DNA from: a bacterium
GTDB lineage: Bacteria; Patescibacteriota; Gracilibacteria; UM-FILTER-43-11
Assembly (NCBI GenBank): GCA_030427295.1
Contig: JAUHWS010000005.1
Span: 1-50,129 of the forward strand
Direction of reading: 5' to 3'
Length of the DNA: 50,129 bases
The notes beneath the pieces are model-generated. The model ran no database searches. It had not been told where the DNA came from and was given only the letters and a program-made list of their open reading frames with translations. Positions 7,511 through 36,318 of this stretch are shown here, in pieces; the first letter of the stretch is position 1, and each line of letters starts with the position of its first letter. A program made the translations under genes and the position numbers.

Positions 7511-8162
7511 AATTTACTATGCTCATACTGATGAGGTTGTGTACCCAGTGAGGTATGAGGGATCCCAGTAAGGATTTTGATTTGTGAAATAAGAAGGCGA
7601 AGATGACTCCAACCACGAAGATGTAGGTGGCTCGTCTGAGTAGCATCATGGGTTCAAGCTCGTTGAGTAGAATCCATTTGGGTACGTGTAAAATGACGAA
7701 AAGTAAGGATGAGATCACAATGGATTTCCAGGTATTGGTTTTCTTTTTGAGTTCTTGAAAAACGACAGATCGGAATAAGACTTCTTCAGTAATGGGTGAG
7801 CCGATGATGTGGTTGAGCCAAATGGCAGCGCTGGTGGGCAATGCGTATTCGTAGTCTCCTATTAAGGTTGGTATTCCGAAATTGATGAGTAGCAGAATTA
7901 ACGAGAATCCAAGTCCCCATTTGAGTCCTGATTTGATATTTTTTAGCCCTAAAAATTCCCACTTTTTCTTTGGATAGACTTTCCATATATAAATTAGGGC
8001 TGGAATCAGAAGGCTTCCCACCCGAATGAAGGCTCGAAGTAGGCTATCGGTTTGATTTAGACTCGGCATTTGCCACATGACGATGACCCAGCTGTACCAG
8101 AGTGTGAGCCCGATGATGAGCGGCCAATAAAATAAATTTAAGGTTGCTTTATTTTTCTCCAT
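7509..8162 (-). CDS. CPBP family intramembrane metalloprotease (CAAX/Abi type)
   Basis: Multi-TM; 'SPITEEVLFRSVVFQEL' (EExxxR), later 'LHVPKW' and 'LIPHWVHNL'. Confidence 0.85.
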   Translation of the reverse strand: MEKNKATLNLFYWPLIIGLTLWYSWVIVMWQMPSLNQTDSLLRAFIRVGSLLIPALIYIWKVYPKKKWEFLGLKNIKSGLKWGLGFSLILLLINFGIPTLIGDYEYALPTSAAIWLNHIIGSPITEEVLFRSVVFQELKKKTNTWKSIVISSLLFVILHVPKWILLNELEPMMLLRRATYIFVVGVIFAFLFHKSKSLLGSLIPHWVHNLISMSIVN

Positions 8163-8187
8163 GTCTTTTTTAGTTGGATTTAATTGC

Positions 8188-8193
8188 TATAAT
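8188..8193 (+). promoter_or_regulatory. extended -10 (TGCTATAAT) 6 nt before the P1 ATG
   Basis: tgcTATAATcacgttATG; the spacing predicts transcription starting at or near the ATG. Confidence 0.55.
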
Positions 8194-8199
8194 CACGTT

Positions 8200-9768
8200 A
8201 TGAAAACCTGCTCGCAATGTCAATCATCGTTTGAGGTGAGGGAGGAAGATCGAACCTTTTATCAGCGCATTGGTGTTTCAGAGCCTACTTTGTGTCCTGA
8301 TTGCCGCAATCAGAATCGTTTGGCATTTAGGAATGAGCGTAAGTTTTATAAAGGTCATTGTGACTTTTGTAAGAAAGCTGTGATTTCTCTTTATTCAGAT
8401 GATAAGCCATTTACCGTTTATTGTTCTGAATGTTGGTGGTCTGATCGTTTTGACCCTCTTGATTATGGGATTGACTATGATTCTGATCGGTCGTTTTTTG
8501 ATCAATTGTATGATTTGTCACAGCGAGTTCCCAAACCTGCAATATTAAATGCTAAAAGCCAGAACTCTGCCTACACCAATTATTCTCATGAGAATCAGAA
8601 TTGTTATTTTTGTGTGGGGACCATGAAATGTCAGGATTGCTATCATTGTTATCGTGTGATTGAAAGTAAAAATGTGGTTGATGGTTTTGATTTGCTTCAA
8701 TGTGAGTTGTGCTATGAATGCATCCATTCTCAAAATCTATATGCTTGTATATTTTGCGAATCCTGCGAAAATTCGTCTAACTTAATCCTTTGCAAGGATT
8801 GTATTGGATCTCAGGATTGTTTTGGTTCGGTCAATCTTAAAAACAAGCGTTTTTATATTTTTAATCAGCCATATTCAGAGGAAGAATATCGTCTAAAAGT
8901 TGATGCGCTTAAAAAAGACTGGTCTTCAGCTGTTAGGCAGTTTGAGGCTCTAAAAAAATCTCTTCCTCAAAAGGCGAATCACATTTTGAATGCTGAAAAT
9001 TGCAGTGGTGACCAAATAAAAAATTCCAAGAATTGTTATCGTTGTTTTTCGCTCAATCGGTCAGAAGAGTGTGCTTATGTTTACAATGGAGATCAAAATC
9101 GATTTTGCATGGATACTAATTTTTGTGATAGTTCTGAGTTGCTTTATAATTCGACTAACCTTGAAGACAATTATTTAGGTATTGGTTTAAACTTGGTTTG
9201 GTATTGCAAGAGTGCTTTTTATCTCACCAATTGTTTTAACTCTAGTGATGCATTTGGTTGTTTTGGTTTGAAAAAGCATCAGTATTGCATTCTTAATAAG
9301 CAATATTCAAAAGAAGCGTATGAATCACTGAGTCTTCAAATCATTGAAAAAATGAAATCAGATGAAGAGTGGGGCCTTTTTTATCCCATTGAGCATTCAC
9401 CTTTTGCTTATAATGAAACGGTGGCTCAAGATGCTTATCCGTCTGACAAAAAAAGTGTGTTGGGGCGGGGTTGGAAATGGAAGGATGATTTGAATCACGT
9501 TCCTAAAGACATTCCGGGTTCAGCAGTCACATGTGAACAAACCGGTCGCCCATTTATTATCACTTCTCAAGAGTTGAGTTTCTACAAAAAAATGGATTTG
9601 CCTTTGCCAACCCTTCATCCCGATGAGCGCCATCACCGTCGAGTTGCAGCTTCTTTCAGCTATAAACTTTACAGTAAGAAATGTGTTGCTTGTTCGAATG
9701 ATATTCAAGTGACTCGAGATGAATCTTTATTTTATTGTGATGAGTGTTATTTAAAAGAAATTTATTGA
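8200..9768 (+). CDS. array paralog P1: double zinc-ribbon / NCY-repeat protein (start MKTCSQC)
   Basis: ORF 8161..9768; conserved family start MKTC at 8200; CxxC/CPxC ribbon, 'YCILNKQYSKEAYE', C-terminal 'YCDECYLKEIY'. Confidence 0.85.
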   Translation: MKTCSQCQSSFEVREEDRTFYQRIGVSEPTLCPDCRNQNRLAFRNERKFYKGHCDFCKKAVISLYSDDKPFTVYCSECWWSDRFDPLDYGIDYDSDRSFFDQLYDLSQRVPKPAILNAKSQNSAYTNYSHENQNCYFCVGTMKCQDCYHCYRVIESKNVVDGFDLLQCELCYECIHSQNLYACIFCESCENSSNLILCKDCIGSQDCFGSVNLKNKRFYIFNQPYSEEEYRLKVDALKKDWSSAVRQFEALKKSLPQKANHILNAENCSGDQIKNSKNCYRCFSLNRSEECAYVYNGDQNRFCMDTNFCDSSELLYNSTNLEDNYLGIGLNLVWYCKSAFYLTNCFNSSDAFGCFGLKKHQYCILNKQYSKEAYESLSLQIIEKMKSDEEWGLFYPIEHSPFAYNETVAQDAYPSDKKSVLGRGWKWKDDLNHVPKDIPGSAVTCEQTGRPFIITSQELSFYKKMDLPLPTLHPDERHHRRVAASFSYKLYSKKCVACSNDIQVTRDESLFYCDECYLKEIY

Positions 9769-9781
9769 TTTATTTATTTTT

Positions 9782-10564
9782 ATGAACAAAAATCTATCCA
9801 TTTGTGTGATTGGTGCTGGTCATCTTGGAATGAGCATTTTAAATCAATTACATAAAAGAGGGCATAAGGTGCTTTGGGCAACTAGAAGAAGTCATGAGCG
9901 CCTTTCAGAAATTCGACAATTGGTACCTGGTATTAACGTAACCACAGACAATCTTTTGGCTATTAAATCATCTGAGGTAATCATTGTTGCGACGAAAGAG
10001 CATAATTTTTTAGACTTTGCATCAGATTTAAAAAACAATCGATCTGGGAAATTTATTATCAGTATGGGGCCAACTTATAGTTTAAAAAAGTTGGGTTCTA
10101 TTTTTGGTTCAGGGAATGCTCGCCTTGTCCCACCGATCGACCCTTTAGAAGATGTTCTGTGTTACAGTCTTGATGAGCATTGTGGGGCTCGGGAAAAAGA
10201 AATAATTCAATATATATTTAAAGGTACTTTATGTCAGATTCAAGATTTCCAAATGCCTATGGCTACTAGTTATGTTCTTTTTAGAGTTTTGCTCAATTCC
10301 TTTTTTGAGCCATTGCAAAATGCTGGAAAAAAGGTTGGCTTCGATGAAGAATTTATTCAGCGTATTGTTGGGAAGATGCTTATTTCTGCAGGTCAGGAGA
10401 TTGAATTGGGAATAAGTTCTAGACAAAGACTTGAGCAAGCGAGTGGAGGTTTTAATGAGAAGAGCTTTACATTGAATTTGTATAATGATCTCAAGCCTCT
10501 TCAAAATCAGTTTGAAAAACTCTTTAATCAAACTTATTCTCAGTTAAAGAACTTAGAACAATAA
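9782..10564 (+). CDS. pyrroline-5-carboxylate reductase-like (ProC fold) NAD(P)-binding protein
   Basis: 'ICVIGAGHLGMSILNQLHKRGHKVLWATRR' Rossmann motif; 'LEQASGGFNEKSF' resembles the ProC C-terminal region. Confidence 0.7.
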   Translation: MNKNLSICVIGAGHLGMSILNQLHKRGHKVLWATRRSHERLSEIRQLVPGINVTTDNLLAIKSSEVIIVATKEHNFLDFASDLKNNRSGKFIISMGPTYSLKKLGSIFGSGNARLVPPIDPLEDVLCYSLDEHCGAREKEIIQYIFKGTLCQIQDFQMPMATSYVLFRVLLNSFFEPLQNAGKKVGFDEEFIQRIVGKMLISAGQEIELGISSRQRLEQASGGFNEKSFTLNLYNDLKPLQNQFEKLFNQTYSQLKNLEQ

Positions 10565-10569
10565 ATTTT

Positions 10570-12204: not shown

Positions 12205-12245
12205 CTTAATTACGAGTTGCTAATTACGAGTTACGAATGTGGTTA

Positions 12246-12346
12246 TCAGAATAGCAGCGTTTTGGCATCCACAATAGATCCACACGAAGTTGGACCCTCG
12301 ATAGACCCTCAAAAGACCTTCCATAGGCTCTCCACAGAAAAACCGT
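12246..12346. repeat. CTATTGTGG/CCACRATAGA hairpin repeat family, copy downstream of P2
   Basis: ccacaatagatccac...gatagaccctcaaaagacctt; similar to copies at 21.2, 23.2, 30.8 and 36.4 kb. Confidence 0.6.
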
Positions 12347-12407: not shown

Positions 12408-14051
12408 ATGGTTAAACAGAATCTTTTTAGCCGCTTGTCGTCTTGGCTGCCTGGGGCAGTATTGGCGTTTGCGGCGGCTTTGGCTTTTATGCCTAACGCA
12501 CTTGCTGCTCCAACCCTCAATTATACTGAAAAAATCCCTGAGCTTTTTAAGGTGTATGAGGGGGGTGATTACGCGATGAATATTGAACTGACTGAATTCG
12601 CTGATGATACGACGGTAGAAGTTTTTATAGAGGGCCCCGTTGATGATCCTGAAAGCAGTAAGTATAAAATTGGTGAATTTGAGTACACTCAAGATGGTGT
12701 TCATGAATTCACGTGGGATGGAACTGTCGATGGCGATTATTTATTGCCGGGTGACTATTTGGTGACGGTTTCTGGAGAAGATTTGCAAAACAATCCTCTT
12801 GGCCCCTTGGATGGTTCTTTTGAAATGACTGAGGAAACTAACATGACGGTTATTACGCCTCAACCCGATGATGTTCCTGCTGACTTTGCTAGTTTTGAGT
12901 ACGAATTGGAGACAGCAGTGGGTGCTTGTATTGTTTTTGAGGTGGATGGGGCTGTAGAAAAAACAGAGGGTCCTTTGAGTAGTGGTACTTATTCGTTCAA
13001 TTGGGGTTCTCCAGGTGAATATGAGTGGTCTTTTATAGCTGATCCTCAGTATTGTGATGGTGATGCCCCTGCTTCGACTGAAGAATTGGCTTCTGGCAAG
13101 CTTGTTGTTCTTGATGGCGAAGATGAAATCATCCAAGCGCCTACACTTGGTTTTACAGAAATGCTTGAAGCGACCTATGTCTTGGATTCAGGGAATTATT
13201 CGGTTGAAGTTGGCTTAGAAAATTTTGACTCCAATACTACTGTTGAAATGACTTTGACAGGTCCAAAGGAGGGAAATGAACAGAGTTTTGTAGCGGATAC
13301 CTATCTTTATCAAGACAATGGAACTCATACGTTTTTATGGAATGGGGAAGATGAAAAAGGCCTTCCCGAACCAGGTGAATATACAGTGACTTTTCAAGGA
13401 ATGTATGGTCAAGATCAAATGACCAATAAACTTGAATACGTTCTTTCTGTTGAAGAAAAAACTGTAGAACCTCCTGTTGAAGAAGAATTTTGTGGGGGTT
13501 TCACCGACTTGCCTGGAGATTATGTTTACTGTGATGCTGTCAAAAAAGTGAAGGCTGCTGGCTTGATGACAGGGCAAGATGATGGAACAGGTGCCTTTGA
13601 TATTGGCCCTTTGAATCGGGCTGAAGCGGTTCAAATTTATGCTCGTTTGGATGCGAATTATGATGAAGTTAATGAGGTTTGTGAAGTGATTTTCCCCGAT
13701 GTGGTTTGTGATATTTGGTATGGTCCGCTGGTCTATTATAGTCATGAACAAGGGTACGTGACCGGTTATGAGGCACCGGATCCTAAGGCGGGTATGTTTG
13801 GCCCTGGGGATGATCAAATTCAGCCTCAAGGTTTTGTTTTGCTCTCTCGGGTTTTGGACGTGGATTACCCCCATCAACAAGCGTCCTTCGGAGGTAAAAT
13901 TTCTGGTTCTGAATGGTATAGTGGGGCTTATGCCTGGGCCGAAATGCTAGAGCTTTTGCCTGCTGATGAGATCGACTTGAATAGCTCATTTACTCGCGAG
14001 GATATGGCTCGCGTGTTGGCTAAGTTGATTGATATGAATTTGATTCAATAG
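12408..14051 (+). CDS. secreted protein with FlgD-like Ig repeats and C-terminal SLH-like domains
   Basis: Signal peptide; 'HEFTWDGTVDGDYLLPGDYLVTV' repeats; 'CGGFTDLPGDYVYCDAVKKVKAAGLMTGQDDGTGAFDIGPLNRAEAVQI' SLH-like. Confidence 0.7.
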   Translation: MVKQNLFSRLSSWLPGAVLAFAAALAFMPNALAAPTLNYTEKIPELFKVYEGGDYAMNIELTEFADDTTVEVFIEGPVDDPESSKYKIGEFEYTQDGVHEFTWDGTVDGDYLLPGDYLVTVSGEDLQNNPLGPLDGSFEMTEETNMTVITPQPDDVPADFASFEYELETAVGACIVFEVDGAVEKTEGPLSSGTYSFNWGSPGEYEWSFIADPQYCDGDAPASTEELASGKLVVLDGEDEIIQAPTLGFTEMLEATYVLDSGNYSVEVGLENFDSNTTVEMTLTGPKEGNEQSFVADTYLYQDNGTHTFLWNGEDEKGLPEPGEYTVTFQGMYGQDQMTNKLEYVLSVEEKTVEPPVEEEFCGGFTDLPGDYVYCDAVKKVKAAGLMTGQDDGTGAFDIGPLNRAEAVQIYARLDANYDEVNEVCEVIFPDVVCDIWYGPLVYYSHEQGYVTGYEAPDPKAGMFGPGDDQIQPQGFVLLSRVLDVDYPHQQASFGGKISGSEWYSGAYAWAEMLELLPADEIDLNSSFTREDMARVLAKLIDMNLIQ

Positions 14052-14118: not shown

Positions 14119-14461
14119 TTTGGAAATGAAAATGGTAGGTTATCACGCTTGGACTTGATCCAAGAGTCGTCTGTATTTGGAGTCTCTGGATTCAGACGAT
14201 TCCCCCGCCGTGGCGGGGGAATGATAACAGTCACTTAGGTATATACTTTGGATTGAGGTGGGTATATACTTTCTTAGAGCTGGTAGCTATTAGCTGTTAG
14301 CTGGTAGACTAGTCGGTATTTGGAATAACTTAAATTAGCTCTTACTTAAGATAAATAGAGAATTTTACTAACTGAATTTAACTCCCAGCTACAAGCTCCT
14401 AGCTTCCAGCTTTTTTTGGAGGGTAGGTATATAGTTGAAGAGAGGGTTAGTATATACTTTA
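14091..14461. repeat. composite repeat copy 2 (REP + cloverleaf-like hairpins + GTATATAC-bounded unit)
   Basis: REP palindrome, CTTGGAC..ATCCAAG, GTCGTCTG..CAGACGAT and ATTCCCCCGCC..GGCGGGGGAAT stems, then two GTATATA pairs. Confidence 0.7.
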
Positions 14462-14503
14462 TTCACGCTATCCTCAATTTCACTCCTCTGTTAGAATCTT
14501 TAC

Positions 14504-16174
14504 ATGAAGACATGCGCTCAATGCCAATCATCGTTTGAGGTGACGGAGGGGGATCGTCAGTTTTATGATCGGATTAGTCCTGTTTTTGGAGGTCAAACGT
14601 ATCCTATTCCGGAGCCGACCCTTTGTCCCCAGTGTCGGATGCGACGGCGGATGGTTTGGCGTTCGGAGTTGCATCTTTTTAAGCATAAGAGTGATTTTTC
14701 AGGCAAAATGATGCTTTCTTCTTTTCCTCCCGAAGCCCCTTACCGGGTCATCTCCTCCGAAGAGTTTTGGTCGGACGATTGGGATCCTTTGGCGACGGGT
14801 CGAGATTTTGATTTCAGTCGGCCTTTTTTTGATCAATTTGCAGAGTTGGTTAAGGATACTCCTTTGATCAGCTTGACGGTGATCAATAATCAAAATAGTG
14901 AGTATGTGAATAATGCGGGTTGGAATAAGGATTGTTATCTGGTGGCTGGGGCGAATCGCAATGAGAGTTGTTATTATGGGAACTTTATCAATCACTCCAA
15001 AAATATTGTCGATTCTAGTTTTGTTCGAAATTCTGAGTTTTGTTACGAGTGTATTGACTGTACGGATTCCTATAATCTGAAGTATTCAGCGAATTGTACG
15101 AATTGCAGTGATTCTTTCTTTTTGTTCAACTGCAAAAATTCTCGTCATTGTTTTGGCTCGGTGAACTTGGTGAATCGAGAGTATGTTTTCATGAATGAGC
15201 AACTCTCTAAAGAGGATTATTTTGAAAAACTAAATACACTTGATTTGGATCAGCGGAGTCGTGTTTTGGAGGCCAAGACTTACTTTAAGGAGCATCGTCT
15301 TAAATATCCCCATAAATATATGATTGGCGAGATGAATGAAGGTGTTTCAGGGAATGTGGTGTATCATTCCCGGAATGCCTTTGATTGTTATGACGCGTCT
15401 GACTTGGAAGATTGTAGGTATTGTGCCTGGTTTCACACGGGTAAAAATTGTATGGATATTTATTCGTGGGGTTATCCAAATACGGAAGAATGCTATGAAT
15501 GTTTGGAGGTAGGAGACAATAGTCGTCGTGTTTTTTTCAGTGTGACGACTCAAAATTCTGATGAGCTTTTTTATACCTTGAACTGCATGCAGTCAAATTA
15601 TCTATTTGGTTGTGTGAGCTTGAAGCGATCCAAGTATTGCATTCTCAACAAACAGTATTCCAAAGCGGAATATGAAACCCTGATTCCTAAAATTATCACT
15701 CACATGCAAGAAACGGGCGAATGGGGGGAATTTTTTCCCATGTGGGTGTCTCCTTTGGCCTATAATCAAACGATTGCGATTGACTACTTTCCTCTTAAAA
15801 AGGATGAGGTTTTGGCCTTGAGGGCTAAATGGAATGAAGGAGCGCCGATCACTTCTCCTGCGCTAACAGTTGAGATTTCAGATTCTATTCATGAGGTGGA
15901 GAATTCTATTTGTGATCAAATTTTGACTTGTGCGGAATGTCGTCGGCCTTATAAAATCATTCCTCAAGAATTCCAGTTTTATAAAACTCAGACTATTCCT
16001 GTACCCGACCGTTGTTTTCAATGTCGTCATCAATCTCGGCTCAAAGCTCGAAATCCACGCCGGTTATGGGATCGGAATTGTGCTAAGTGCTCGGCTGAAA
16101 TTCAGACTAGCTATGCGCCGTATCGACCGGAGCTGGTATACTGTGAAGCGTGTTATTTGGAGGAAGTTTATTAG
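14504..16174 (+). CDS. array paralog P3
   Basis: MKTCAQCQSSFEVTEGDR...YCILNKQYSKAEYE...YCEACYLEEVY; TGtTAGAAT 6 nt before ATG. Confidence 0.9.
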   Translation: MKTCAQCQSSFEVTEGDRQFYDRISPVFGGQTYPIPEPTLCPQCRMRRRMVWRSELHLFKHKSDFSGKMMLSSFPPEAPYRVISSEEFWSDDWDPLATGRDFDFSRPFFDQFAELVKDTPLISLTVINNQNSEYVNNAGWNKDCYLVAGANRNESCYYGNFINHSKNIVDSSFVRNSEFCYECIDCTDSYNLKYSANCTNCSDSFFLFNCKNSRHCFGSVNLVNREYVFMNEQLSKEDYFEKLNTLDLDQRSRVLEAKTYFKEHRLKYPHKYMIGEMNEGVSGNVVYHSRNAFDCYDASDLEDCRYCAWFHTGKNCMDIYSWGYPNTEECYECLEVGDNSRRVFFSVTTQNSDELFYTLNCMQSNYLFGCVSLKRSKYCILNKQYSKAEYETLIPKIITHMQETGEWGEFFPMWVSPLAYNQTIAIDYFPLKKDEVLALRAKWNEGAPITSPALTVEISDSIHEVENSICDQILTCAECRRPYKIIPQEFQFYKTQTIPVPDRCFQCRHQSRLKARNPRRLWDRNCAKCSAEIQTSYAPYRPELVYCEACYLEEVY

Positions 16175-16175
16175 A

Positions 16176-16279
16176 TACCTCCTCCAGCTCCTCCGAAGGA
16201 GGAGTGCAAAAGAACTTCATTACTTCTTTAATTTTGCACCTCCCCTTTGGGGAGGCTGGGAGAGGTCCCTAAATAACTA
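16176..16279. repeat. hairpin spacer (CTCCTCCGAAGGAGGAG + CTCCCCTTTGGGGAG), identical to 32575-32678
   Basis: Two hairpins joined by TGCAAAA...TTTTGCA; essentially identical second copy in the P9-P10 gap. Confidence 0.85.
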
Positions 16280-16282
16280 TTT

Positions 16283-18191: not shown

Positions 18192-18580
18192 ATTGAAAAA
18201 TAAGAAAACGGTTGTCACTCTTGGATCAAGCCTGCCTGGCGGCAGGCAGGCTTGATCCAAGAGTCGTCTGTATTCGGAGAAACAGTATTGAGACGATTCC
18301 ATGGTCAAGCCATGGAATGACAATTGTGTACTTAGGTATATACTTCGAGTTAGGGTGAGTATATACTTTATTCTTAGTTACGAATTACTAATTACGAATT
18401 ACGAGTTTATTTTTTGAGCGTTTAGCGGTCAGCGTATAGCGTTTAGCTCTATTCTAAGATCTATTTTAGCTAGTCGCTATTCGCTACTCGCTTATCGCTT
18501 GTTGAAAAAGGTATTGAGATGGTGCCCAGCATTTCACAGAGGATAGGTATATAGTTGGGGAGAGGATGAGTATATACTTC
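18164..18580. repeat. composite repeat copy 3
   Basis: REP + cttggatcaagcctgcctggcggcaggcaggcttgatccaag + ATTCCATGG..CCATGGAAT + GTATATA pairs + TAGCG arms. Confidence 0.75.
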
Positions 18581-19376
18581 ACCGTGCTACGAAGGCGGTG
18601 GCGCCAAGCCAGGCAAGGTCAAAAAAGGATTTCATGCTTTCGGCGAAGGTGGGGCTTTCGAGGATGAGTCCGATCAGTTCATCTTTATTGAGAGAGATAA
18701 TGCCCACTTTGTTTCCGTAGATGGCGATTTCGTTTTGGAAGTTGAATTCTTTGGGGTTGACCATCAAAATTTCCAATAAGTTGGGATCATATTGTTTGGG
18801 ATAATAAGCATCGATCATGTCGACCCCTTCTTCGGTGGCGGGTGCGATGTAGCGGGTTTTGATTCTATATTTTACTTTTTTTTGACAAAATTGACGAAAA
18901 TAGTTGGGGAAGAGTTCACTTAGACCTTTTAAACTGGTGTAACCCAATACTTCGTCTTTTGTTTTTAGGATGTCCTCAAAAATACTTTTGACGCCTTCTT
19001 CTCCTTCGTAAAATCGAATTTTGGGTTTGGAAGCCATGGTGCTGGCCATGGCGAGGAGTTGCGGGATGAGGTCATTGGCCCGTTGTACTTTTTCTTCGGC
19101 CATTTGCTTGAAACGTTTGGGGTCTTCGGCGGTAAAGTGGAGTACTTTTCCCCTTCGGTAAGAACTCACTAGTCCCTTTTTAACGAGATTGTCTAGAGTG
19201 TGATAGCAAGAGGATCGATTGACTTTGGCTCGCCGGGCAATGGCGCTTACGAACGCGTTGCCCAGCTCTAAAACAGACAAGTATACTTTCGCTTCTTCTT
19301 TGGTTAATCCTAAATTTGTAAGCTCCTCATTAACGATCATTTTTTGAGTTGAGTTATTGTTGTTGAATGGATTCAA
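18579..19376 (-). CDS. TrmB-like HTH transcriptional regulator (1)
   Basis: 'LTNLGLTKEEAKVYLSVLELGNAFVSAIARRAKVNRSSCYHTLDNLVKKGLVSSYRRGKVLHFTAEDP' winged HTH; 'KIRFYEGEEGVKSIFEDIL'. Confidence 0.85.
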   Translation of the reverse strand: MNPFNNNNSTQKMIVNEELTNLGLTKEEAKVYLSVLELGNAFVSAIARRAKVNRSSCYHTLDNLVKKGLVSSYRRGKVLHFTAEDPKRFKQMAEEKVQRANDLIPQLLAMASTMASKPKIRFYEGEEGVKSIFEDILKTKDEVLGYTSLKGLSELFPNYFRQFCQKKVKYRIKTRYIAPATEEGVDMIDAYYPKQYDPNLLEILMVNPKEFNFQNEIAIYGNKVGIISLNKDELIGLILESPTFAESMKSFFDLAWLGATAFVAR

Positions 19377-21565: not shown

Positions 21566-23215
21566 ATGAAAACCTGTTCTCAATGTCACTCATCGTTTGA
21601 AATTTTTCCTGAAGATCGGGCGTTTTATGAAAAAATGGAGGTGCCCGAGCCGACATTTTGTCCACTTTGCCGGATGCAACGACGATTGAGTTACCGCAGT
21701 GAGCGGTTTTTGTATCATCGTAAGTGTGATCTAACGGGTAAGCAGATTATTTCGACCTATCCCCATGATTCGAAGTGGCCTGTTTATAATATTGATGATT
21801 GGTGGGGAGACCAATGGGATCCGATGGATTACGGGCGTGATTTTGATTTCACGCGTCCTTTTTTTGAGCAGTTTTTTGAACTCCGTAATCAAGTGCCCCG
21901 TTTAGCTCTTATTCAACAAAAACCGATGGAAAATAGTGATTATTGCAATGCGGCGAGCTTGAATAAGAATTGCTACTTGGTTTTTTCAACGAACCGTTGT
22001 GAGGATTGCTATTATGGATCCTGGGTGAATCAATGTCGTAATGTAGTTGATGCATTGAATATCAATACATCAGAGCTTTGTTATGAGTGTGTTGGTTGCA
22101 GTGATTGTTATAATGTTAAATACTCTATTGATTCAAATAATTGTAAAAATTCTGCTTTCTTGAGAGCATGTTCGGGTTGTTCGGATTGTTTTGGTTGTAG
22201 CAATTTAATTAATAAACAGTATTATATTTTTAATAAAGCTCATACAAAAGAACAGTACGAAGCCTTTATGAAAGAGGTAGATTTGGGAAGCTATGAAGTG
22301 GTCGAAAAAATTAAAGCCAGACTAGATGATGAGCTTTTGGATTTGATTGTTAAGGCTTTTCAAGGTGTTAATAATGAAAACTCTGTTGGTAATTATTTAC
22401 GTCAGTGCAAAGACTGTTACTCGTGTTTTGAGTGTGATAACTCAGAATCCCTTCGATATTGTTATTGTTTGGAGGGGGTGAATCATTGTATGGATTACAG
22501 CTATTGGGGTGTGGGGGCTAGTTGGGTTTATGAAACTCAAGCTTCTGGATATCAGGTGAACAATATTCGTTTTTGTAATTTGAGTTGGAATAATTGTAGT
22601 AACCTAACATATTGTGATCATTGTCATCATACTCAAGATTCCTTCGGTTGCGTTGGCCTTCGCAATAAACAGTATTGCATTTTGAATAAACAATACTCCA
22701 AAGAAGAATACGGAGTCTTGGTTCCCAAAATCATTGAACACATGAAGTCCACGGGTGAATGGGGGGAGTTTTTTCCTACCAAGGATAGTATTTATGCCTA
22801 CAACGAAACTTTGGCTTATGAGCAAATCCCGCTTTCCAAAGAAGAGGTTTTAGAGCGTGGTTGGCAGTGGCGCGATGAACAGGAAACGATGAGCTATAAG
22901 GGGCCCAAGGTTGTGATTCCTGATCATATAAAAGAGGTCGAAGATTCCATTGTAAGCGAGATTCTGATTTCTGAAAAATCGGGCAAGCCTTATAAAATAA
23001 TTCCTCAAGAACTTAAATTTTACCGTGAAAACAATATTCCTATTCCTCGATTAACCCCTGATGAGCGCCATTGGGAGCGTCTCAAAAAACGTAACCCTCG
23101 GGTTTTATTCGATCGAAACTGTGAAAAATGCGATAAAGCGATTCAGACCACTTATGCGCCTGATCGGCCTGAGAAGGTGTATTGTGAGAGTTGCTATTTG
23201 AAGGAAGTCTACTAA
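21566..23215 (+). CDS. array paralog P6
   Basis: MKTCSQCHSSFEIFPEDR...YCILNKQYSKEEYG...YCESCYLKEVY. Confidence 0.9.
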   Translation: MKTCSQCHSSFEIFPEDRAFYEKMEVPEPTFCPLCRMQRRLSYRSERFLYHRKCDLTGKQIISTYPHDSKWPVYNIDDWWGDQWDPMDYGRDFDFTRPFFEQFFELRNQVPRLALIQQKPMENSDYCNAASLNKNCYLVFSTNRCEDCYYGSWVNQCRNVVDALNINTSELCYECVGCSDCYNVKYSIDSNNCKNSAFLRACSGCSDCFGCSNLINKQYYIFNKAHTKEQYEAFMKEVDLGSYEVVEKIKARLDDELLDLIVKAFQGVNNENSVGNYLRQCKDCYSCFECDNSESLRYCYCLEGVNHCMDYSYWGVGASWVYETQASGYQVNNIRFCNLSWNNCSNLTYCDHCHHTQDSFGCVGLRNKQYCILNKQYSKEEYGVLVPKIIEHMKSTGEWGEFFPTKDSIYAYNETLAYEQIPLSKEEVLERGWQWRDEQETMSYKGPKVVIPDHIKEVEDSIVSEILISEKSGKPYKIIPQELKFYRENNIPIPRLTPDERHWERLKKRNPRVLFDRNCEKCDKAIQTTYAPDRPEKVYCESCYLKEVY

Positions 23216-23321: not shown

Positions 23322-24071
23322 TTACCTTCCCATTTTCCACGCCCACTCGAACATGGCTCGGTAGGTTTTGGCAATTTCCTCACTTTCAATCACGATGGCA
23401 AAAATATGGTTTTTGAGGGAGAAGATGACGAGTTTGTTTTCGTAGATCACGTTGTCGGTGAATCCGAATTCAAATTCATTGCTTAAATGACGCAGTTGAT
23501 ACCCCTTTTTGTATTCTTTTTTAAAATTTTTTGACCATTGATTGGTGGTTTTACTTCTGTAGTGTAGTTCTCGAATTTTAATGGTTTTGAGTTTTGAAAT
23601 GGATTCTTTAAAGTTGTTCATCACCTCTGGAACTTCTTTATGAATGGCATCCACATTGGCAAAAAACAAGGCTTCCGCTCCGTTTTTTAGAGCGCTGAAC
23701 ATGTCTTTGTATACCAGATTCATGCCCGCTTTGTTTTCGAAGACTTGAATCCTGGGTTTACTTTTACTTTGGTGATAAAGGGCTAAAAGATCCGGCAGGC
23801 TATCTTCCATCTGGCGTTTTTGATCCTGAGCGATTTCGACCAATCGATTGGGATGGATGGCAGCGTATTTTTTACGTTTTCCAATGAGGGTTTCAGATAC
23901 CAATCCTTTTTGAATGAGATCTTCGATGACCAGATAGGCGGTGGGCCGTTTGATTTGACTGATACGAGCAATATCGGTCATTGAGACTTCCCCAATTTCA
24001 AGTAGTTTTAAATAGACTGTTCTTTCTTTTTGGTCTAGGCCAATGTTTTTTAAGCTGGCTTCTATGTTCAT
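23322..24071 (-). CDS. TrmB-like HTH transcriptional regulator (2)
   Basis: 'LKNIGLDQKERTVYLKLLEIGEVSMTDIARISQIKRPTAYLVIEDLIQKGLV'. Confidence 0.85.
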   Translation of the reverse strand: MNIEASLKNIGLDQKERTVYLKLLEIGEVSMTDIARISQIKRPTAYLVIEDLIQKGLVSETLIGKRKKYAAIHPNRLVEIAQDQKRQMEDSLPDLLALYHQSKSKPRIQVFENKAGMNLVYKDMFSALKNGAEALFFANVDAIHKEVPEVMNNFKESISKLKTIKIRELHYRSKTTNQWSKNFKKEYKKGYQLRHLSNEFEFGFTDNVIYENKLVIFSLKNHIFAIVIESEEIAKTYRAMFEWAWKMGR

Positions 24072-26480: not shown

Positions 26481-28004
26481 TTATTTCTTCGTTTCTTCTT
26501 TTATTTCTTCTTCGATCACTCCTTCTAGGATGAGCATTGCCAAATAGGCGGCGGCATTAATATGTCTATGTTTTCTATTTGGACTTAGAGTCGAGCCTAG
26601 GTCGTGATTTAGTTCGAAATACAATTCTGCTTCTTTTCTTTGCTTCCGTTTTTTTTCAATCTCATCTTTAGTTAAATTTAGTTTTTCAAAATACTCAAAA
26701 TCATATATAAAAAGTTCTAGCTGAGGCCCCGCCTCTCTTTTATTTACTTTAAAAGCTACGCCGTGCGTGTCTGTATTTTGACGGCCGTTTTCAAATATGG
26801 CTTTTTCCATTAGTTTCCCCGCCCTTTTTCTAACTCGCTTGTACTTTATCCTCACGTAATCTTCAAATGTTAATTCAGGTGTTCTTTTTAGCAGAGCGAA
26901 AAACTTCCCTAGGCGGCCGGGCTCTCTTATCCTAAGTGCTTTTTTCACTCGTTCATCATTTAAGTATCTTTTTGCCAGCTCCTTAACTTTTTGATATTCC
27001 TTTTCATATTCTTTTTTGTGATTAGTAACTTCGGCTATAAACTCTTCTTTTGCCACCTCTTCATTCTCTATTAGATCTTCTTCATATTCAAATACGGTGA
27101 ATTGAAATCCATCAGGATAGGTGACAACAGCTACTGGTTTTTCCCAACTTAACTTTATTTCCTCTTTATCAATTCCTTCGTTTTTTTCAAAATGTTGAGC
27201 TACTTTAAACTCTTCTAATGAGCTAAGTCCAGGTTGATGACCTCTTTTTTTGGTGTGTGCGTGTCTGGCTGTTTTTTTCTCTTTTAATATGTATTTTGAC
27301 TCACCTACATCAACTTTGTAAACACGGTCTTTAGATTGTACCCTTTTTTTCCAACGATGAGGTTTTAATAATTCTTCTCTTTTAGCCGGATCATCTGTGT
27401 TTAGGCTTATTAATATCCCGCTGGGGAGCTCAATTTCTCTTCCTGTTGTACTTCTAACATTTTCTTCTTCCTGTATTAACTCTGCACTCAATGCTAGCAT
27501 TTTGACATCTCTGGCAAAACTATAACGTTGGGCGATCATAATTCTTTCAGCATGAGTTATTCCTTTATCAAACGCCCCTAAACTTCCTAGGTCCTCTATT
27601 CTCTCTCTTAAGCCTTCTCCTTTTCGTTCCATCTCATCTCTTTCAAATGCTATTTTCTCTGCAAGGTCAGTATGAGTTTTTGCATGTTTGATGTCTGGGG
27701 AAATCAATTCATCTGGGACTGCTTCGAGGTCTAGATAGGAGCCTAAAATTCCTTTGAATCTATCTCTTAGCTTTCCAATGCGTTGATTGTGTAAATGCTT
27801 TAAAAATTCACCAGGCAGTGTTTCGCTTACGGGGGTATCGACAAAGTCAGCAACCTCCTTTCTCGTTTTACCATTTTTAATCACCTCGCGCCGAATTGCC
27901 TCAGTAACCAATTTCCATTCTCTTTCGATTTCTTTGACGGATTTCCCCACTCTTTCTATGATTGGAGTTCTAGTTTTGATGTGTTCAAATCCTACTATTC
28001 CCAT
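26481..28004 (-). CDS. hypothetical protein with diverged kinase-like features
   Basis: Single 507-aa ORF; 'SKYILKEKKTARH', 'LEEFKVAQHFEK', 'NTDTHGVAFKV...LELFIYDFEYF' resemble a kinase-fold Lys/Glu/catalytic-Asp pattern. Confidence 0.6.
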   Translation of the reverse strand: MGIVGFEHIKTRTPIIERVGKSVKEIEREWKLVTEAIRREVIKNGKTRKEVADFVDTPVSETLPGEFLKHLHNQRIGKLRDRFKGILGSYLDLEAVPDELISPDIKHAKTHTDLAEKIAFERDEMERKGEGLRERIEDLGSLGAFDKGITHAERIMIAQRYSFARDVKMLALSAELIQEEENVRSTTGREIELPSGILISLNTDDPAKREELLKPHRWKKRVQSKDRVYKVDVGESKYILKEKKTARHAHTKKRGHQPGLSSLEEFKVAQHFEKNEGIDKEEIKLSWEKPVAVVTYPDGFQFTVFEYEEDLIENEEVAKEEFIAEVTNHKKEYEKEYQKVKELAKRYLNDERVKKALRIREPGRLGKFFALLKRTPELTFEDYVRIKYKRVRKRAGKLMEKAIFENGRQNTDTHGVAFKVNKREAGPQLELFIYDFEYFEKLNLTKDEIEKKRKQRKEAELYFELNHDLGSTLSPNRKHRHINAAAYLAMLILEGVIEEEIKEETKK

Positions 28005-28101: not shown

Positions 28102-28875
28102 CTAGTCTAAATTGTTCCACATCTCCTCAAAATAGATTCGAAATGTATCGGCGACGGCTTTACTTTCGATGATGATGCCTGAAGGATAGCCTCCCTCCAT
28201 GTTGGTGTAGGCGACTTTATTGGACCAGCACAGGGTGTCTGTTGGGAAGGTGCCTTTTGATTTTTTCCAGATTTTATATTGGTGTTTAGTGGGTCCATTT
28301 TTGTAGGCTTTTATGATTCGTTCAGTCATTTTGGATTCGGTCATGATGTCCCGCTTAAAGAGTCCTAGCATGTTTAAGTAGACGTTATTCTCTAGAAATC
28401 CTGGGTATGTTTTTTCTAGTTCTTCGGTCGGCCAGATGGTGATTACTTTGCGATTGCATTTTTCTGCATTCATCAAATCCTTTCGTATTTCTTCGTAGAC
28501 CCTTATCATTCCATCCACTCCTTCATAAAAACGAACTTTTGTTTTTTGGGAGGTTCCCATTTTTAAATTTTCAAAGGCACTGGCTGCTTTTTCAAACTCT
28601 TTTTCGGTCTTCTCCCATTGCCGTTTTTTTTGATTGATGTAGGCAATGAGTCCTGAATGTCCCAGTGCTTCATAGTGTTTGACGCCTGACTTTTCAAATT
28701 CTGTGATCAGTCCTTTTTCTAATAGGCTTTCGGTTAAGTCGTAAATATGAGTTCGGGTGATGTCTGTTTCTTTAGCAATGGTTTTAACGGCGGCTGGGCC
28801 CATTTTATAGATCGCCAAGAATACGGCAATTTCTTTTTCTTGGAGATTTAATCGGGATAGTAATGTTTTGAGCAT
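28102..28875 (-). CDS. TrmB-like HTH transcriptional regulator (3)
   Basis: 'LSRLNLQEKEIAVFLAIYKMGPAAVKTIAKETDITRTHIYDLTESLLEKGLITEFEKSGVKHYEAL'; 'KVRFYEGVDGMIRVYEEIRKDL'. Confidence 0.85.
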   Translation of the reverse strand: MLKTLLSRLNLQEKEIAVFLAIYKMGPAAVKTIAKETDITRTHIYDLTESLLEKGLITEFEKSGVKHYEALGHSGLIAYINQKKRQWEKTEKEFEKAASAFENLKMGTSQKTKVRFYEGVDGMIRVYEEIRKDLMNAEKCNRKVITIWPTEELEKTYPGFLENNVYLNMLGLFKRDIMTESKMTERIIKAYKNGPTKHQYKIWKKSKGTFPTDTLCWSNKVAYTNMEGGYPSGIIIESKAVADTFRIYFEEMWNNLD

Positions 28876-30902: not shown

Positions 30903-32573
30903 ATGAAGACTTGTGTTCAATGCAAAACGGCGTTTGATTTTTCTGATAATGATCGGCATTTGCTGGATAAAATGACCTATGTCTTTGCTGGTGAGTCTTT
31001 TGAGATTCCTAATCCGACACTCTGTCCTACTTGTGCGTTTCAGAGGCGTTTGCTTTTTCGTTACAATGGTACTTACCATAGGCGCCCATCGGCTTTGTCT
31101 GGAAAATCTCTGATCACTATGCATGCGCCATCTAGAAAAGTGACTGTTTATTCTCCTGAAGAATGGTGGTCTGATGCCTGGGATGGCCGAGATTACGGGC
31201 GTGATTTTGATTTCAGTCGGTCTTTTTTTGAACAGTTGATTGAACTCTTTGAAGTCGTTCCTCAGATGGCTTTGGTGCAAGATGGCAGTAGTGAGAATTG
31301 TATGTTCACCAATTATGGTCATGGGAGCAAGAACTGCTACATGGCTTTGGCCTTTAAATCTGAGGATTGTTACTATGCTGAAACTTTTTATTGCAAAGAT
31401 GTTGTGGATAGCTTCCATGCCACTCAGTGTGAAAAATCTTATGAAGTTTTGGACTCTCAAAATTGCTACAATGTTAAGTATGTTCAGAATTCACAAGGCT
31501 GTAGTGATTCGATGTTTTTGGAGAACTGTGTGAGCTGTAAAAATTGTTTGGGCTGTAAAAATTTACGAAATAAGGAGTACTATATTTTTAATAAGCCCTA
31601 TTCGAAGGAGGAATATGAAAAAAAGATTTTAGAATATCAATTAGATAGCTATTCTGGCATTCGCGCATTTGAAAAGGAATTTGAGGCTTTTAAGTTGGCC
31701 CTTCCTAATCGGTATAATCGTGAGATCAACAGTGAAAATAGTACAGGTGATTTATTGGTGGGAGCAAAGGATTGTCACGATTGTTTTGATGTGATCAATG
31801 GCGCTGAGAATTGCCGTGATGCGGCTATTTTTGGTTTGGATGGCCGAGATGTGATGCGCTCTAGTTTTTTTGGAGCTGAGTTGGGTTATGAGATTGATGG
31901 TAGCCTTCATGCCTATCATTCGGCATTCATTCATCACAATCGCTACTGTTCTGAATGTTTGTATTCGATGTATATCTATAGTTGCGAGAATTTATTTGGT
32001 TGTATCAGTTTGAAAAATCAAAAATACTGTATTCTCAACAAACAATATTCTAAAGAAGAGTATGAGGTGATGGTTTCTAAAATCATAAAACACATGCAAG
32101 AAACCGGCGAGTGGGGGCAGGTTTTTCCGATTGATTTTCCAGCCTTTGCTTATAACGAATCGGAAGCAAAATTTCACTTTCCCCTTTCCAAGGAAGAGGC
32201 TATAGCTCAAGGTTTTTTGTGGCTTGAGATTGACCAAACAGTAGAAGCTCAGAAAAAGATTCATGCTAGTCAACTCCCTGAGCGGATTGAAGACACTCCG
32301 GATGATATTTTGAATTGGGCGATTGAATGTGAAGCATCGGGTCGACTTTATAAAATCATTCCTCAGGAACTCCGTTTTTACAGAGCTCACCAGATTCCTG
32401 TGCCTCATTTTCATCCTGAAGTACGTTATGCCGAACGCTTTGCTAAACGGAATCCATATCGCCTCTGGGACCGTCAGTGCGATAAATGTAACAAAGCCAT
32501 TCGCACCTCTTTTTCTCCGGATCGGCCCGAGCTGGTATACTGTGAAGCGTGTTATTTGGAGGAGGTTTATTAG
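30903..32573 (+). CDS. array paralog P9
   Basis: MKTCVQCKTAFDFSDNDR...YCILNKQYSKEEYE...YCEACYLEEVY; ORF also opens one codon upstream. Confidence 0.9.
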   Translation: MKTCVQCKTAFDFSDNDRHLLDKMTYVFAGESFEIPNPTLCPTCAFQRRLLFRYNGTYHRRPSALSGKSLITMHAPSRKVTVYSPEEWWSDAWDGRDYGRDFDFSRSFFEQLIELFEVVPQMALVQDGSSENCMFTNYGHGSKNCYMALAFKSEDCYYAETFYCKDVVDSFHATQCEKSYEVLDSQNCYNVKYVQNSQGCSDSMFLENCVSCKNCLGCKNLRNKEYYIFNKPYSKEEYEKKILEYQLDSYSGIRAFEKEFEAFKLALPNRYNREINSENSTGDLLVGAKDCHDCFDVINGAENCRDAAIFGLDGRDVMRSSFFGAELGYEIDGSLHAYHSAFIHHNRYCSECLYSMYIYSCENLFGCISLKNQKYCILNKQYSKEEYEVMVSKIIKHMQETGEWGQVFPIDFPAFAYNESEAKFHFPLSKEEAIAQGFLWLEIDQTVEAQKKIHASQLPERIEDTPDDILNWAIECEASGRLYKIIPQELRFYRAHQIPVPHFHPEVRYAERFAKRNPYRLWDRQCDKCNKAIRTSFSPDRPELVYCEACYLEEVY

Positions 32574-32574
32574 A

Positions 32575-32678
32575 TACCTCCTCCAGCTCCTCCGAAGGAG
32601 GAGTGCAAAAGAACTTCATTACTTCTTTAATTTTGCACCTCCCCTTTGGGGAGGCTGGGAGAGGTCCCTAAATAACTA
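32575..32678. repeat. hairpin spacer identical to 16176-16279
   Basis: Same sequence by eye between P9 and P10. Confidence 0.85.
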
Positions 32679-32680
32679 AT

Positions 32681-34369
32681 ATGAAAACCTGCCTACAATG
32701 CCAATCAGCCTTCGAAGTTGCCGACCAAGATCGGAATTTTTACGATCAAGTGAGTCCGGTTTTTAATGGCGTGAAGTACTCCATTCCTGAACCAACGCTT
32801 TGTCCGGACTGTCGTCAACAACGTCGTTTGTCGATTGTGAATGAGCGATTTTTTTATCCAGGGACGTGCGGACTCTGTCAAAAGCGTTTGTTGACGGAGC
32901 ATCCATCCTACAGTGCTAAGACGGTTTATTGTTATGATTGTTGGCTTGGTGATTCTTGGGATGCTCGTGATTATGGTCGTGAAGTGGATTTTACACGTCC
33001 CATCTTTGATCAGATCAAAGAATTGTGGTCTGCCGTTCCGGCTCAAAATTTACTGGTTGAAGGGACGAATGTTAATTCTGAATACATCCATTATGCCGGT
33101 TATGCTAAAAACTGTTATTTGATCACGCATGCGGATTATTGTGAGGATTGTTATTATGGTTATGGGATCAAGCAGTCTAAATCTTGTGTGGATGGCTTTT
33201 ATAATTTGGCTTCCGAGCTTTGCTATGACTGTGTGGACGTGAATAAATGTTATGACCTGAAAGGTTCTCAGGATTGTTTTAACTCCAGCTCATCGGCTTT
33301 TTTGAAGGATTGTGTGGGGGTTAAGCATTGTTTTTTGTCGGTTGGGCTCCGTAATAAGGAATATTGTTTTCGCAATGAGCAGTTGACTGAAGCGGAGTAT
33401 AAAAAGCGAATGTCGGAGATTGATTTGGGGTCGCATGAGCAGTATCAGCGTTATAAAAATGAGCTCACGGAACTCGCTAAAAAGTATCCGGTAAAGGCGA
33501 CGCATGGTCATAATAATGAAAACTCTTCCGGCGATCATTTAACTAATTGTAAAAATGTTCAGGATAGTTTTGATTGCGAAGATGTGGAGGATGGGCGCTT
33601 TTTGTATCAGGTGGTGACCGGTGCTAAGAATGATTATGATATTTATCAATATGGGCTCAATTTATCGGAGTCTTATGAATGTTGTATTGCGGGCAATAAT
33701 TGTTACCATATTCTTTTTTCTCATAATGCGCATGTCAATTGTTCTGACTTAATTTATTGTTGGTTTGTTCAAAATTCTAAAAATTGTTTTGCCTCGGTGA
33801 ATATGCATCATGCTCAGTATTGTATTTTGAATAAGCAATATACCAAAGAAGAGTACGAGGCGCTAGTGCCGAAAATTATCAAATACATGAAGCAAACGGG
33901 GGAGTGGGGTGAGTTTTTTCCAGCGAGTTTTTCACCTTTTGGATATAATAAAACGACGGCCCAACTTTATTTTCCAATGACGAAGGATGAAGTGCTTTCT
34001 AGGGGGTGGCAATGGGATGACGAGCTGCTTCCTAAACCTGATTTTGAACGTGTGATTGAAGCTTCTCAACTTCCTGATTCCATTGATGACATTCCCGATG
34101 ATATTTTGAATTGGGCGATTCGTTGTGAAATTTCTGGTCGCTTGTTTAAATTGATTCCACAGGAACTTAAATTTTATCGCTCACATCGCCTCCCCATTCC
34201 TCGCCGTTCTTCCAATCAACGGCATTTGGATCGTTTTGCACTCCGCAATCCTCGTCGCTTTTTGGATCGTCAGTGTGATCAGTGTCACCAAAATATCCGG
34301 ACGACTTATGGGGCTCATTATCCGGGTAAGGTTTATTGTGAGGAGTGTTATTTGAAGACTGTTTATTGA
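32681..34369 (+). CDS. array paralog P10
   Basis: MKTCLQCQSAFEVADQDR...YCILNKQYTKEEYE...YCEECYLKTVY. Confidence 0.9.
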   Translation: MKTCLQCQSAFEVADQDRNFYDQVSPVFNGVKYSIPEPTLCPDCRQQRRLSIVNERFFYPGTCGLCQKRLLTEHPSYSAKTVYCYDCWLGDSWDARDYGREVDFTRPIFDQIKELWSAVPAQNLLVEGTNVNSEYIHYAGYAKNCYLITHADYCEDCYYGYGIKQSKSCVDGFYNLASELCYDCVDVNKCYDLKGSQDCFNSSSSAFLKDCVGVKHCFLSVGLRNKEYCFRNEQLTEAEYKKRMSEIDLGSHEQYQRYKNELTELAKKYPVKATHGHNNENSSGDHLTNCKNVQDSFDCEDVEDGRFLYQVVTGAKNDYDIYQYGLNLSESYECCIAGNNCYHILFSHNAHVNCSDLIYCWFVQNSKNCFASVNMHHAQYCILNKQYTKEEYEALVPKIIKYMKQTGEWGEFFPASFSPFGYNKTTAQLYFPMTKDEVLSRGWQWDDELLPKPDFERVIEASQLPDSIDDIPDDILNWAIRCEISGRLFKLIPQELKFYRSHRLPIPRRSSNQRHLDRFALRNPRRFLDRQCDQCHQNIRTTYGAHYPGKVYCEECYLKTVY

Positions 34370-34602
34370 TAGGTATGTATATACTTTTGGTGAGGGTTGG
34401 TATATACTTTTTTCGAGCTGATAGCTATTAGCTGTTAGCTGGTAGACTATTCAGTATTCAGAATAACTCGAATTATCTCTTATTTAAGATAAATAAAGGG
34501 TTGCATTAACTGAATTTCACTCCCAGCTATCAGCTCCAAGCTCCCAGCTTTTTTCAAAAGGTAGGTATATAGTTGGGGAGAGGGTGAGTATATACTTTAT
34601 TC
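34370..34602. repeat. GTATATAC-bounded repeat, copy 4 (AGCTNNT-arm subtype)
   Basis: ggtatgtatatac...gttggtatatac ... ggtaggtatatagttggggagagggtgagtatatac; agctgatagctattagctgttagct arms. Confidence 0.75.
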
Positions 34603-34641
34603 ACACTATCCCTAATTTAGCTCCTCTGCTAGAATCTTTAC

Positions 34642-36318
34642 ATGAAGACTTGCAATCAATGTCAATCATCGTTTGAGGTGACGGAAGAGGATCGACGGTT
34701 TTATGAAAAAATCAGTCCAGTTATTGGGGGTCAAACGTTTTTGATTCCTGAGCCTACTCTATGTTCAGATTGTCGTTTGCAGCGCCGTTTGGCTTTTCGT
34801 AATGATCACCATTTGTACGAACGGCGATGTGATCAGTCTGGAAAACGGCTGATCTCTATGTATCCCCAAGAAGCTCCCGTGACGGTTTATGATAAGGATA
34901 TTTGGTGGTCTGATGAATGGGATCCAAAAGATTATGGGCGAGAGTTTGATTTCAATCGGTCTTTTTTTGAGCAATATGGCGAATTGATCTCAGAAGTGCC
35001 TCATGCTCACACGGTGATTCTTGATGCGGAAAATAGTCTTTATACTAATTATAATGGCTTTGTTCGCAATTGCTATTTATGCTTTGCAGGGAATCATCTT
35101 CAGGATAGCTTGTATTGTTACAATGCTCAGAATTCCAAAGATTGCGTGGACTGTCTTTTTGTTTATGATTCGGAATTGGCTTATGAATCGGTTCATAGCG
35201 ATCAGCTTTATAACACGGTTTATGCATTGCATTCTAAAAACTGTTCCGACTCAATGTTTATTGAGGGGTGTACCGGGGTGAAGAATTGTTTCATGTCTTT
35301 TAATTTGAATAATAAGGAATATTGTATTTTAAATGAGCAGTATTCCAAGGAAGAATATGAAAAGCGGATTGAGTCTTATCAGCTCAATACTTATTTTGGT
35401 TTTAAGAGAGCTTTAGATTACTGGTTAGAAGTTCGGAAGAACTATCCTAAACGCTCCAATTATAACTTGATGAGTGAGGATGTGTCTGGGGAGTACATTT
35501 TGCAATCTAAAAATTGTCATGAGGCTTATATTGTTGCCAAAGGTTCTCAGGATTCAAAGTATCTTTTTTCTACCTTTCCTGGATTGAAAGATAGTTACGA
35601 CTGTAGTTTTTCAGGTGAGGATATTTCGTTTTTCTACGAGTGTATGGGGAGTGGGGCGAAGGGAACCGAGAATTTATTTGGAGCTTTGATTTTGGATGGC
35701 TGCAGTAATGTGCTTTACTCACAGTTTATGTTCAATTCAAAGAACTGTTTTGGATGTAGTAATATGCGCAATGCTCAATACTGTATTTTGAATAAGCAAT
35801 ATACCAAAGAAGAGTATGAAGTCCTGGTACCTAAAATTATTGAGCACATGGAACGAATGGGGGAATGGGGTGAGTTTTTTCCGATTTCAATGTCGCCTTA
35901 CGCTTATAATAAGACAGTAGCTTTTGAGCAGTTTCCCCTTAAGAAATCTCAATTGGAACAAAGTGGGTGGAATTGGGAAGATCAGCATATTTCTAATAAA
36001 GCTCATGAATCTTACGATATTCCTGACGATATCAATGACGTTTCAAGTGATATTACTTCAGCGGTTTTGACCTGTGAAGGATGTGGTAAATCTTATCGCA
36101 TTATTCAACAGGAGTATGCCTACTACTTAAAGCGTCAGTTGCCCATTCCTCGTTATTGTTTTGATTGTCGTCACCAAGCTCGATTAACCCTACGCAATAC
36201 CCGCAAGCTCTATGACCGCCAGTGTGATAAATGTGGTGTGGAGATTCAGACTTCTTACGCTCCTGACCGACCAGAGACAGTGTATTGTGAGAGCTGTTAT
36301 TTGAAAGAGGTCTACTAG
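34642..36318 (+). CDS. array paralog P11
   Basis: MKTCNQCQSSFEVTEEDR...YCILNKQYTKEEYE...YCESCYLKEVY; TGcTAGAAT 6 nt before ATG. Confidence 0.9.
   Translation: MKTCNQCQSSFEVTEEDRRFYEKISPVIGGQTFLIPEPTLCSDCRLQRRLAFRNDHHLYERRCDQSGKRLISMYPQEAPVTVYDKDIWWSDEWDPKDYGREFDFNRSFFEQYGELISEVPHAHTVILDAENSLYTNYNGFVRNCYLCFAGNHLQDSLYCYNAQNSKDCVDCLFVYDSELAYESVHSDQLYNTVYALHSKNCSDSMFIEGCTGVKNCFMSFNLNNKEYCILNEQYSKEEYEKRIESYQLNTYFGFKRALDYWLEVRKNYPKRSNYNLMSEDVSGEYILQSKNCHEAYIVAKGSQDSKYLFSTFPGLKDSYDCSFSGEDISFFYECMGSGAKGTENLFGALILDGCSNVLYSQFMFNSKNCFGCSNMRNAQYCILNKQYTKEEYEVLVPKIIEHMERMGEWGEFFPISMSPYAYNKTVAFEQFPLKKSQLEQSGWNWEDQHISNKAHESYDIPDDINDVSSDITSAVLTCEGCGKSYRIIQQEYAYYLKRQLPIPRYCFDCRHQARLTLRNTRKLYDRQCDKCGVEIQTSYAPDRPETVYCESCYLKEVY

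Follow-up and report, generated by a model that had tools for sequence, protein, structure and literature searches.

The array analysed here lies in a 50,129-nucleotide stretch of a Gracilibacteria genome (assembly GCA_030427295.1, contig JAUHWS010000005.1, positions 1-50,129; hereafter the window). It encodes eleven large paralogs (P1-P11), followed directly by a soluble motor ATPase of the VirB4/VirD4/HerA class. The organism belongs to the Patescibacteria, a very large group of bacteria whose genomes are tiny. The pairing of the paralog family with this class of motor is strongly supported. We favour, at slightly less than even confidence, the interpretation that the paralogs are cytosolic, zinc-stabilised double beta-solenoids and act not as stand-alone proteins but as interchangeable subunits that partner the motor as adaptors or substrate receptors. 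A reading of the letters without database searches (the sequence-only reading) had described the array but missed the solenoid architecture, the partner ATPase (36592-38835, just outside its coordinates) and the divergent TrmB-type regulators.

The eleven paralogs occupy positions 8161-36318 and comprise 18.3 kb. Their coordinates, strand, lengths and motifs had been given correctly: all eleven open reading frames (ORFs) are present on the plus strand, are intact and encode 535-562 amino acids. They align over nearly their full length to one reference member at 39-44% identity. A search of the source genome (1.48 Mb in 98 contigs) relates the paralogs to each other at E = 1e-103 to 1e-154, which rules out chance likeness. 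The conserved MKTC motif places the probable starts of P1 and P5 at 8200 and 19532. The set is neither continuous nor confined to this locus. Genes for an oxidoreductase (9782), a protein with S-layer homology (SLH) and FlgD-type Ig domains (12408), a 507-residue protein (26481) and three minus-strand TrmB-type regulators (18579, 23322 and 28102) interrupt it, and one full-length copy (contig C93) and one truncated copy of 465 amino acids (contig C9) are encoded elsewhere in the genome. Across sampled loci, neighbouring family genes share one strand in 210 of 210 pairs.

Each paralog is a doubled protein. Within the family alignment, the two repeat regions are homologous to each other (hhalign E 8.5e-36), as are the N-terminal and C-terminal zinc modules (E 1e-25). 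The first repeat region consists of coils of exactly 12 residues with Cys almost wholly at positions 2, 5, 8 and 11. The Cys profile has an autocorrelation of 0.67 at lag 3 and 0.60 at lag 12, values that were equalled in 0 of 5000 shuffles. The Asn-Cys-Tyr repeats of the sequence-only reading are thus present, but they follow an exact period rather than a loose pattern and form two homologous copies per protein. Coil positions 1, 2, 4, 11 and 12 vary little and positions 6, 7, 9 and 10 are the most variable; positions 1 and 3 are mostly Asn/Asp and Tyr or other residues. The AlphaFold model of P6 is confident (predicted local distance difference test (pLDDT) 90.8, predicted template modelling score 0.91), and its strands recur at 12-residue spacing.

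The paralogs in the window contain 24-38 Cys each, and all eleven carry paired CxxC motifs, two near the N terminus and a CxxC...CxxC at the C terminus. Both terminal modules are predicted to bind zinc. As had been proposed, they resemble treble-clef zinc domains, namely PF13451 (zf_Tbcl), PF23477 (zf_Tbcl_2) and the NCBIfam CxxC-x17-CxxC domain TIGR04272, although these matches cover only about 35-50 of 550 residues. In the paralogs tested, PF13451 scored 16.0-21.5 bits (cut-off 24) and PF23477 19.5-22.1 bits (cut-off 27). The Pfam and NCBIfam scans matched the zinc ends only, always below cut-off, and revealed no toxin or enzyme domain. The full-length protein indeed belongs to no named family in Pfam, NCBIfam, PADLOC or PHROGs. 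It matched no known enzyme over its whole length, and we found no published description of the family in the openly licensed literature. A hydropathy scan detected neither a membrane-like nor an N-terminal hydrophobic segment, in agreement with the earlier view that a signal peptide is absent.

Searching the whole P6 model with Foldseek against the PDB and viral models returned nothing at E < 0.001. GlmU and gamma-carbonic anhydrase were rejected as fold relatives; these weak matches with low TM-scores are other beta-helices. Residues 133-219 of the P6 solenoid region weakly match a phage family of unknown function (phrog_15341, E 2e-5). The paralogs share with the Tenebrio antifreeze protein (TmAFP, 1EZG; beta-helix consensus TCTxSxNCxxAx, PMC8038014) a 12-residue coil with small core residues at positions 2, 5, 8 and 11, and 1EZG is the only beta-helix chain in the PDB that the family profile touches, at a non-significant E of 5.4. 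Unlike TmAFP, the paralogs have Asn/Asp-Cys-Tyr in place of the Thr-x-Thr ice face, lack a signal peptide and combine two solenoids with zinc modules. We rejected an antifreeze role: the register is shared, but the ice face is absent. The likeness to TmAFP need not reflect common descent.

The motor ATPase has Pfam matches to T4SS-DNA_transf, TrwB and HerA, and its model (pLDDT 79.6) structurally resembles TrwK/VirB4, HerA and TrwB. It is a RecA-like motor with Walker motifs and a TrwB/VirB4-like fold. The highest 19-residue hydropathy is 1.2 (threshold 1.6), indicating that the protein has no N-terminal transmembrane anchor. We therefore class it only as similar to type IV coupling proteins (T4CPs). 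ATPases of the broad VirB4/VirD4/HerA class occur in all 41 related genomes. Close orthologs (at least 54% identity), in turn, occur in 21 of the 23 genomes with full-length family members and in 0 of the 18 others (Fisher p 9e-10, for genomes that are not phylogenetically independent). Three genera hold both states, and in each of them family and ATPase are present or absent together. The ATPase gene lies within 5 kb of a family gene in 16 of 21 genomes, as counted from genome listings, and in the sampled loci a same-strand family gene immediately precedes it in 16 of 22 cases. The adjacency extends to other classes (genomes G053 and G321). The family is thus genetically associated with a VirD4/TraG-class ATPase, as are adaptors and partners of T4CPs.

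Distant Patescibacteria of another class carry a simpler version of this pair. Profile matches identified relatives of about 233 amino acids that contain one solenoid and the shared C-terminal cap (GKRFCIANMQF..EEY in the relatives, compared with NKQYCILNKQYSKEEY). Their profile recovers the window paralogs at E 2e-9, and because the cap is common to both groups, we favour descent over chance likeness of repeats. Of 31 loci selected solely by the solenoid protein, 29 encode a VirD4/HerA-like ATPase that is either fused to the solenoid or lies directly upstream in the same orientation, the two genes overlapping or being separated by a few bases. The two exceptions end at contig edges, so the arrangement holds in 29 of 29 testable loci. 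In genome G325, ATPase and solenoid form a single 638-residue ORF from which the first ~40 residues of the solenoid protein are absent. Two further genomes have split forms, in which separate genes near that of a full-length ATPase encode a double-solenoid protein and a zinc protein of 104-105 amino acids. In locus L118, a gene with sigma-70 region 4 and HARE-HTH domains (7953-9002) lies between the ATPase gene and a double-solenoid gene.

The relatives also bear on the role of the cysteines. The number of Cys per paralog and their stacking at four coil positions would suit solenoids that hold zinc or copper for storage or buffering. In the single-solenoid relatives, however, Ser, Val or Ile occupies most of the same core positions (mean Cys 0.19), which suggests that Cys serves as a small residue filling the core. 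This replaceability weakens metal storage as the main role, and storage would leave the linkage to the ATPase unexplained; we consider it barely credible.

The ATPase link could also reflect a shared genomic neighbourhood without function, with the paralogs being unrelated scaffold or stress proteins. Many copies do lie away from an ATPase gene, neighbourhoods are heritable and the spacers of the array bear marks of recent recombination. We nevertheless regard this explanation as quite improbable in view of the concordant presence and absence in three genera, the linkage in several Patescibacteria classes and the adjacent or overlapping genes in every testable single-solenoid locus.

The linkage to a VirD4-like ATPase could alternatively mean that the paralogs are effectors without signal peptides. 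The T4CP-like ATPase would pass them through a type IV secretion system to a host or prey cell, and their conserved C-terminal zinc module might be the signal for export. A large and diverse repertoire with a conserved C terminus would fit such a role, and an epibiotic life is known in the phylum (PMC12102498). On the other hand, the ATPase lacks the membrane helix of classical T4CPs, and no toxin or enzyme domain was found in the paralogs. The simplest form of the pair, in which each ATPase gene has one solenoid gene that overlaps it and in one case is fused with it, is also more readily explained by a subunit than by cargo. We consider effectors unlikely and, given the overlapping genes, joint absence and fusion, prefer a subunit or adaptor to an exported cargo.

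Cytosolic adaptors of T4CPs are known from the DotL system, in which IcmSW-LvgA associates with the C-terminal extension of DotL; there, heterogeneous adaptors have been proposed to broaden the range of substrates (PMC7251119). The paralogs resemble this system in being cytosolic proteins paired with a VirD4/TraG-family ATPase, a pairing known here from gene linkage. They differ in being double beta-solenoids with zinc ends, encoded in large arrays, with no reported sequence likeness found to the DotL adaptors (PMC7251119), and in having an ATPase without a membrane helix. The ATPase belongs to the broad class of Patescibacteria VirD4 homologs, of which 5,713 have been counted, only 148 of them near virB4, with exaptation for other functions considered possible (PMC12102498). 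The main text of that study does not contain the words solenoid or zinc, and we found no such VirD4 partner named in it. From the gene pairing together with the known T4CP adaptors and orphan VirD4 homologs, we propose a motor with an interchangeable adaptor repertoire.

The family is widespread and patchy. Full-length members occur in 23 of the 41 related genomes, and copy number ranges from 0 to 38 matches per genome, with the maximum in a genome of 0.9 Mb and patchiness even within genera. Some match was found in 68 of 384 sampled genomes of the phylum, often to the small zinc module only; the named loci are mostly from Peregrinibacteria, Peribacteria and Gracilibacteria. All 12 full-length members of the source genome have their best match in another genome (44-84% identity) and share at most 49% identity with their siblings. 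Five reciprocal best pairs with a genome of the same genus have non-synonymous differences of 0.10-0.38 and synonymous differences of 0.70-0.85; synonymous sites are saturated in four of them, and the fifth has a ratio of non-synonymous to synonymous change (dN/dS) of 0.09. These best matches and dN/dS data indicate that the paralog set is old and maintained, not a recent local burst. The lineage-specific expansion suggested earlier does not hold, and the copies are not mostly pseudogenes, being intact and under purifying selection in the pairs tested. Lineages would have lost or exchanged family members. A phage or plasmid origin was rejected owing to the near-absence of matches: none at the protein level in 50,697 phage and 72,556 plasmid records, and one fragment in IMG/VR.

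Patchiness within genera and a diversified repertoire could point to a conflict or defence module in which a HerA-type DNA-pumping ATPase acts with diversified sensors against phages or plasmids. Weak PADLOC matches of the ATPase to HerA and mad8, and structural matches to HerA and to an anti-phage complex, fit this reading. However, PADLOC matched neither of two paralogs nor one single-solenoid relative, no nuclease or other effector gene recurs beside the arrays, and similar copies persist across genera at the identities given above. We judge a defence role quite improbable.

Features of the paralog array, the domains of P6 and the linked genes, in window coordinates
Feature	Position	Strand	Remark
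P1	8161..9768	+	likely start 8200; zf_Tbcl 21.5 bits, under cut-off 24
P2	10570..12204	+	own-genome search, identity to reference member
P3	14504..16174	+	own-genome search, identity to reference member
P4	16283..17965	+	own-genome search, identity to reference member
P5	19523..21208	+	likely start 19532
P6	21566..23215	+	copy modelled by AlphaFold, pLDDT 90.8
P6 N-terminal zinc module (predicted), ~residues 1-88	21566..21829	+	homologous to C-terminal module
P6 solenoid 1, ~residues 123-226	21932..22243	+	12-residue coils, Cys at 2/5/8/11
P6 solenoid 2, ~residues 268-376	22367..22693	+	homologous to solenoid 1
P6 C-terminal zinc module (predicted), ~residues 467-549	22964..23212	+	other paralogs: sub-threshold PF23477 match
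P7	24786..26474	+	own-genome search, identity to reference member
P8	29152..30798	+	own-genome search, identity to reference member
P9	30900..32573	+	own-genome search, identity to reference member
P10	32681..34369	+	own-genome search, identity to reference member
P11	34642..36318	+	own-genome search, identity to reference member
Soluble VirB4/VirD4/HerA-type motor ATPase, 747 aa	36592..38835	+	no transmembrane helix, Walker residues invariant
TrmB-type regulator	18579..19376	-	divergent from P5; PF01978 E 2e-14
TrmB-type regulator	23322..24071	-	divergent from P7; PF01978 E 5e-14
TrmB-type regulator	28102..28875	-	divergent from P8; PF01978 E 2e-12

The divergent placement of the TrmB-type regulators recurs across loci. 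Among TrmB genes with a neighbour, 30 of 39 are divergent from a family gene, compared with 21 of 272 other ORFs; this comparison is rough, because the family itself determined which loci were chosen and some of the other ORFs are spurious.

The window also contains repeats. The P3/P4 and P9/P10 junctions (16118-16320 and 32517-32718) have 203 nt in common at 94.6% identity. Within them the 108-bp spacers that precede P4 and P10 are identical, whereas the coding regions are widely different. These shared junctions point to recent recombination at gene boundaries. Because parts of the spacer also turn up at scattered sites in the genome, we rejected a family-specific leader and consider repeats and recombination the likelier explanation. 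P3 and P11 share 83% identity across 402 nt that comprise their leaders and the first 134 nt of each gene (14236-14637 and 34374-34775). A non-coding repeat of ~245 nt occurs in three copies at 84-87% identity (7259-7505, 18335-18579 and 43882-44127), one of which adjoins a TrmB gene, and a near-perfect, terminator-like 48-nt inverted repeat (18217-18264) lies between P4 and a TrmB gene. The array has no Rfam matches, and promoter and terminator scans remained at background level. The 507-residue protein within the array (26481-28004, minus strand) has no match in Pfam, NCBIfam, PADLOC or PHROGs and has kinase-like stretches by eye. Two related secreted proteins with FlgD-type Ig and SLH domains are encoded at 12408-14051, inside the array, and at 44206-45630.

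Returning to the proposal of interchangeable motor subunits, we infer that the paralogs bind the motor and cargo of some kind and that TrmB proteins control them. Docking onto the shared motor would be through the zinc modules and the solenoid face, which are both conserved. Cargo would bind at the variable coil positions 6, 7, 9 and 10 and differ between paralogs, each of which would thereby re-target the one motor. The protein-recognition role raised by the sequence-only reading is plausible. The divergent TrmB-type regulators may switch segments of the array on or off. The simplest and perhaps ancestral form would be one solenoid per motor, encoded by an overlapping downstream gene that sits where T4CPs carry their C-terminal adaptor-binding extension.

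Several points weigh against this proposal. The variable surface positions may be merely unconstrained, and the ATPase model is only moderately confident at its pLDDT of 79.6. The Fisher test is affected by the shared phylogeny of its genomes, two family-positive genomes (G005 and G040) have no close ATPase ortholog, many family copies lie on contigs without an ATPase, and the ATPase-solenoid fusion is a single case. Since the number of TrmB genes does not follow family copy number, we claim only their local divergent arrangement.

In its broadest form, the proposal is of a modular Patescibacteria machine in which one soluble VirB4/VirD4-type motor is served by a swappable, individually regulated repertoire of up to ~38 double-solenoid receptors with Cys cores. 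We consider this possible, if rather doubtful. We know of no combinatorial adaptor system of such size for a single motor. Some tiny Patescibacteria genomes spend at least a percent of their length on this paralog family, which has no full-length match to a known family. Through its link to a VirD4-like motor, some of the numerous orphan VirD4 homologs reported in these bacteria (PMC12102498) acquire a partner. The link also turns an expanded family of unknown role into a testable interaction of two proteins, and the pair of single solenoid and ATPase is small enough for direct biochemistry.

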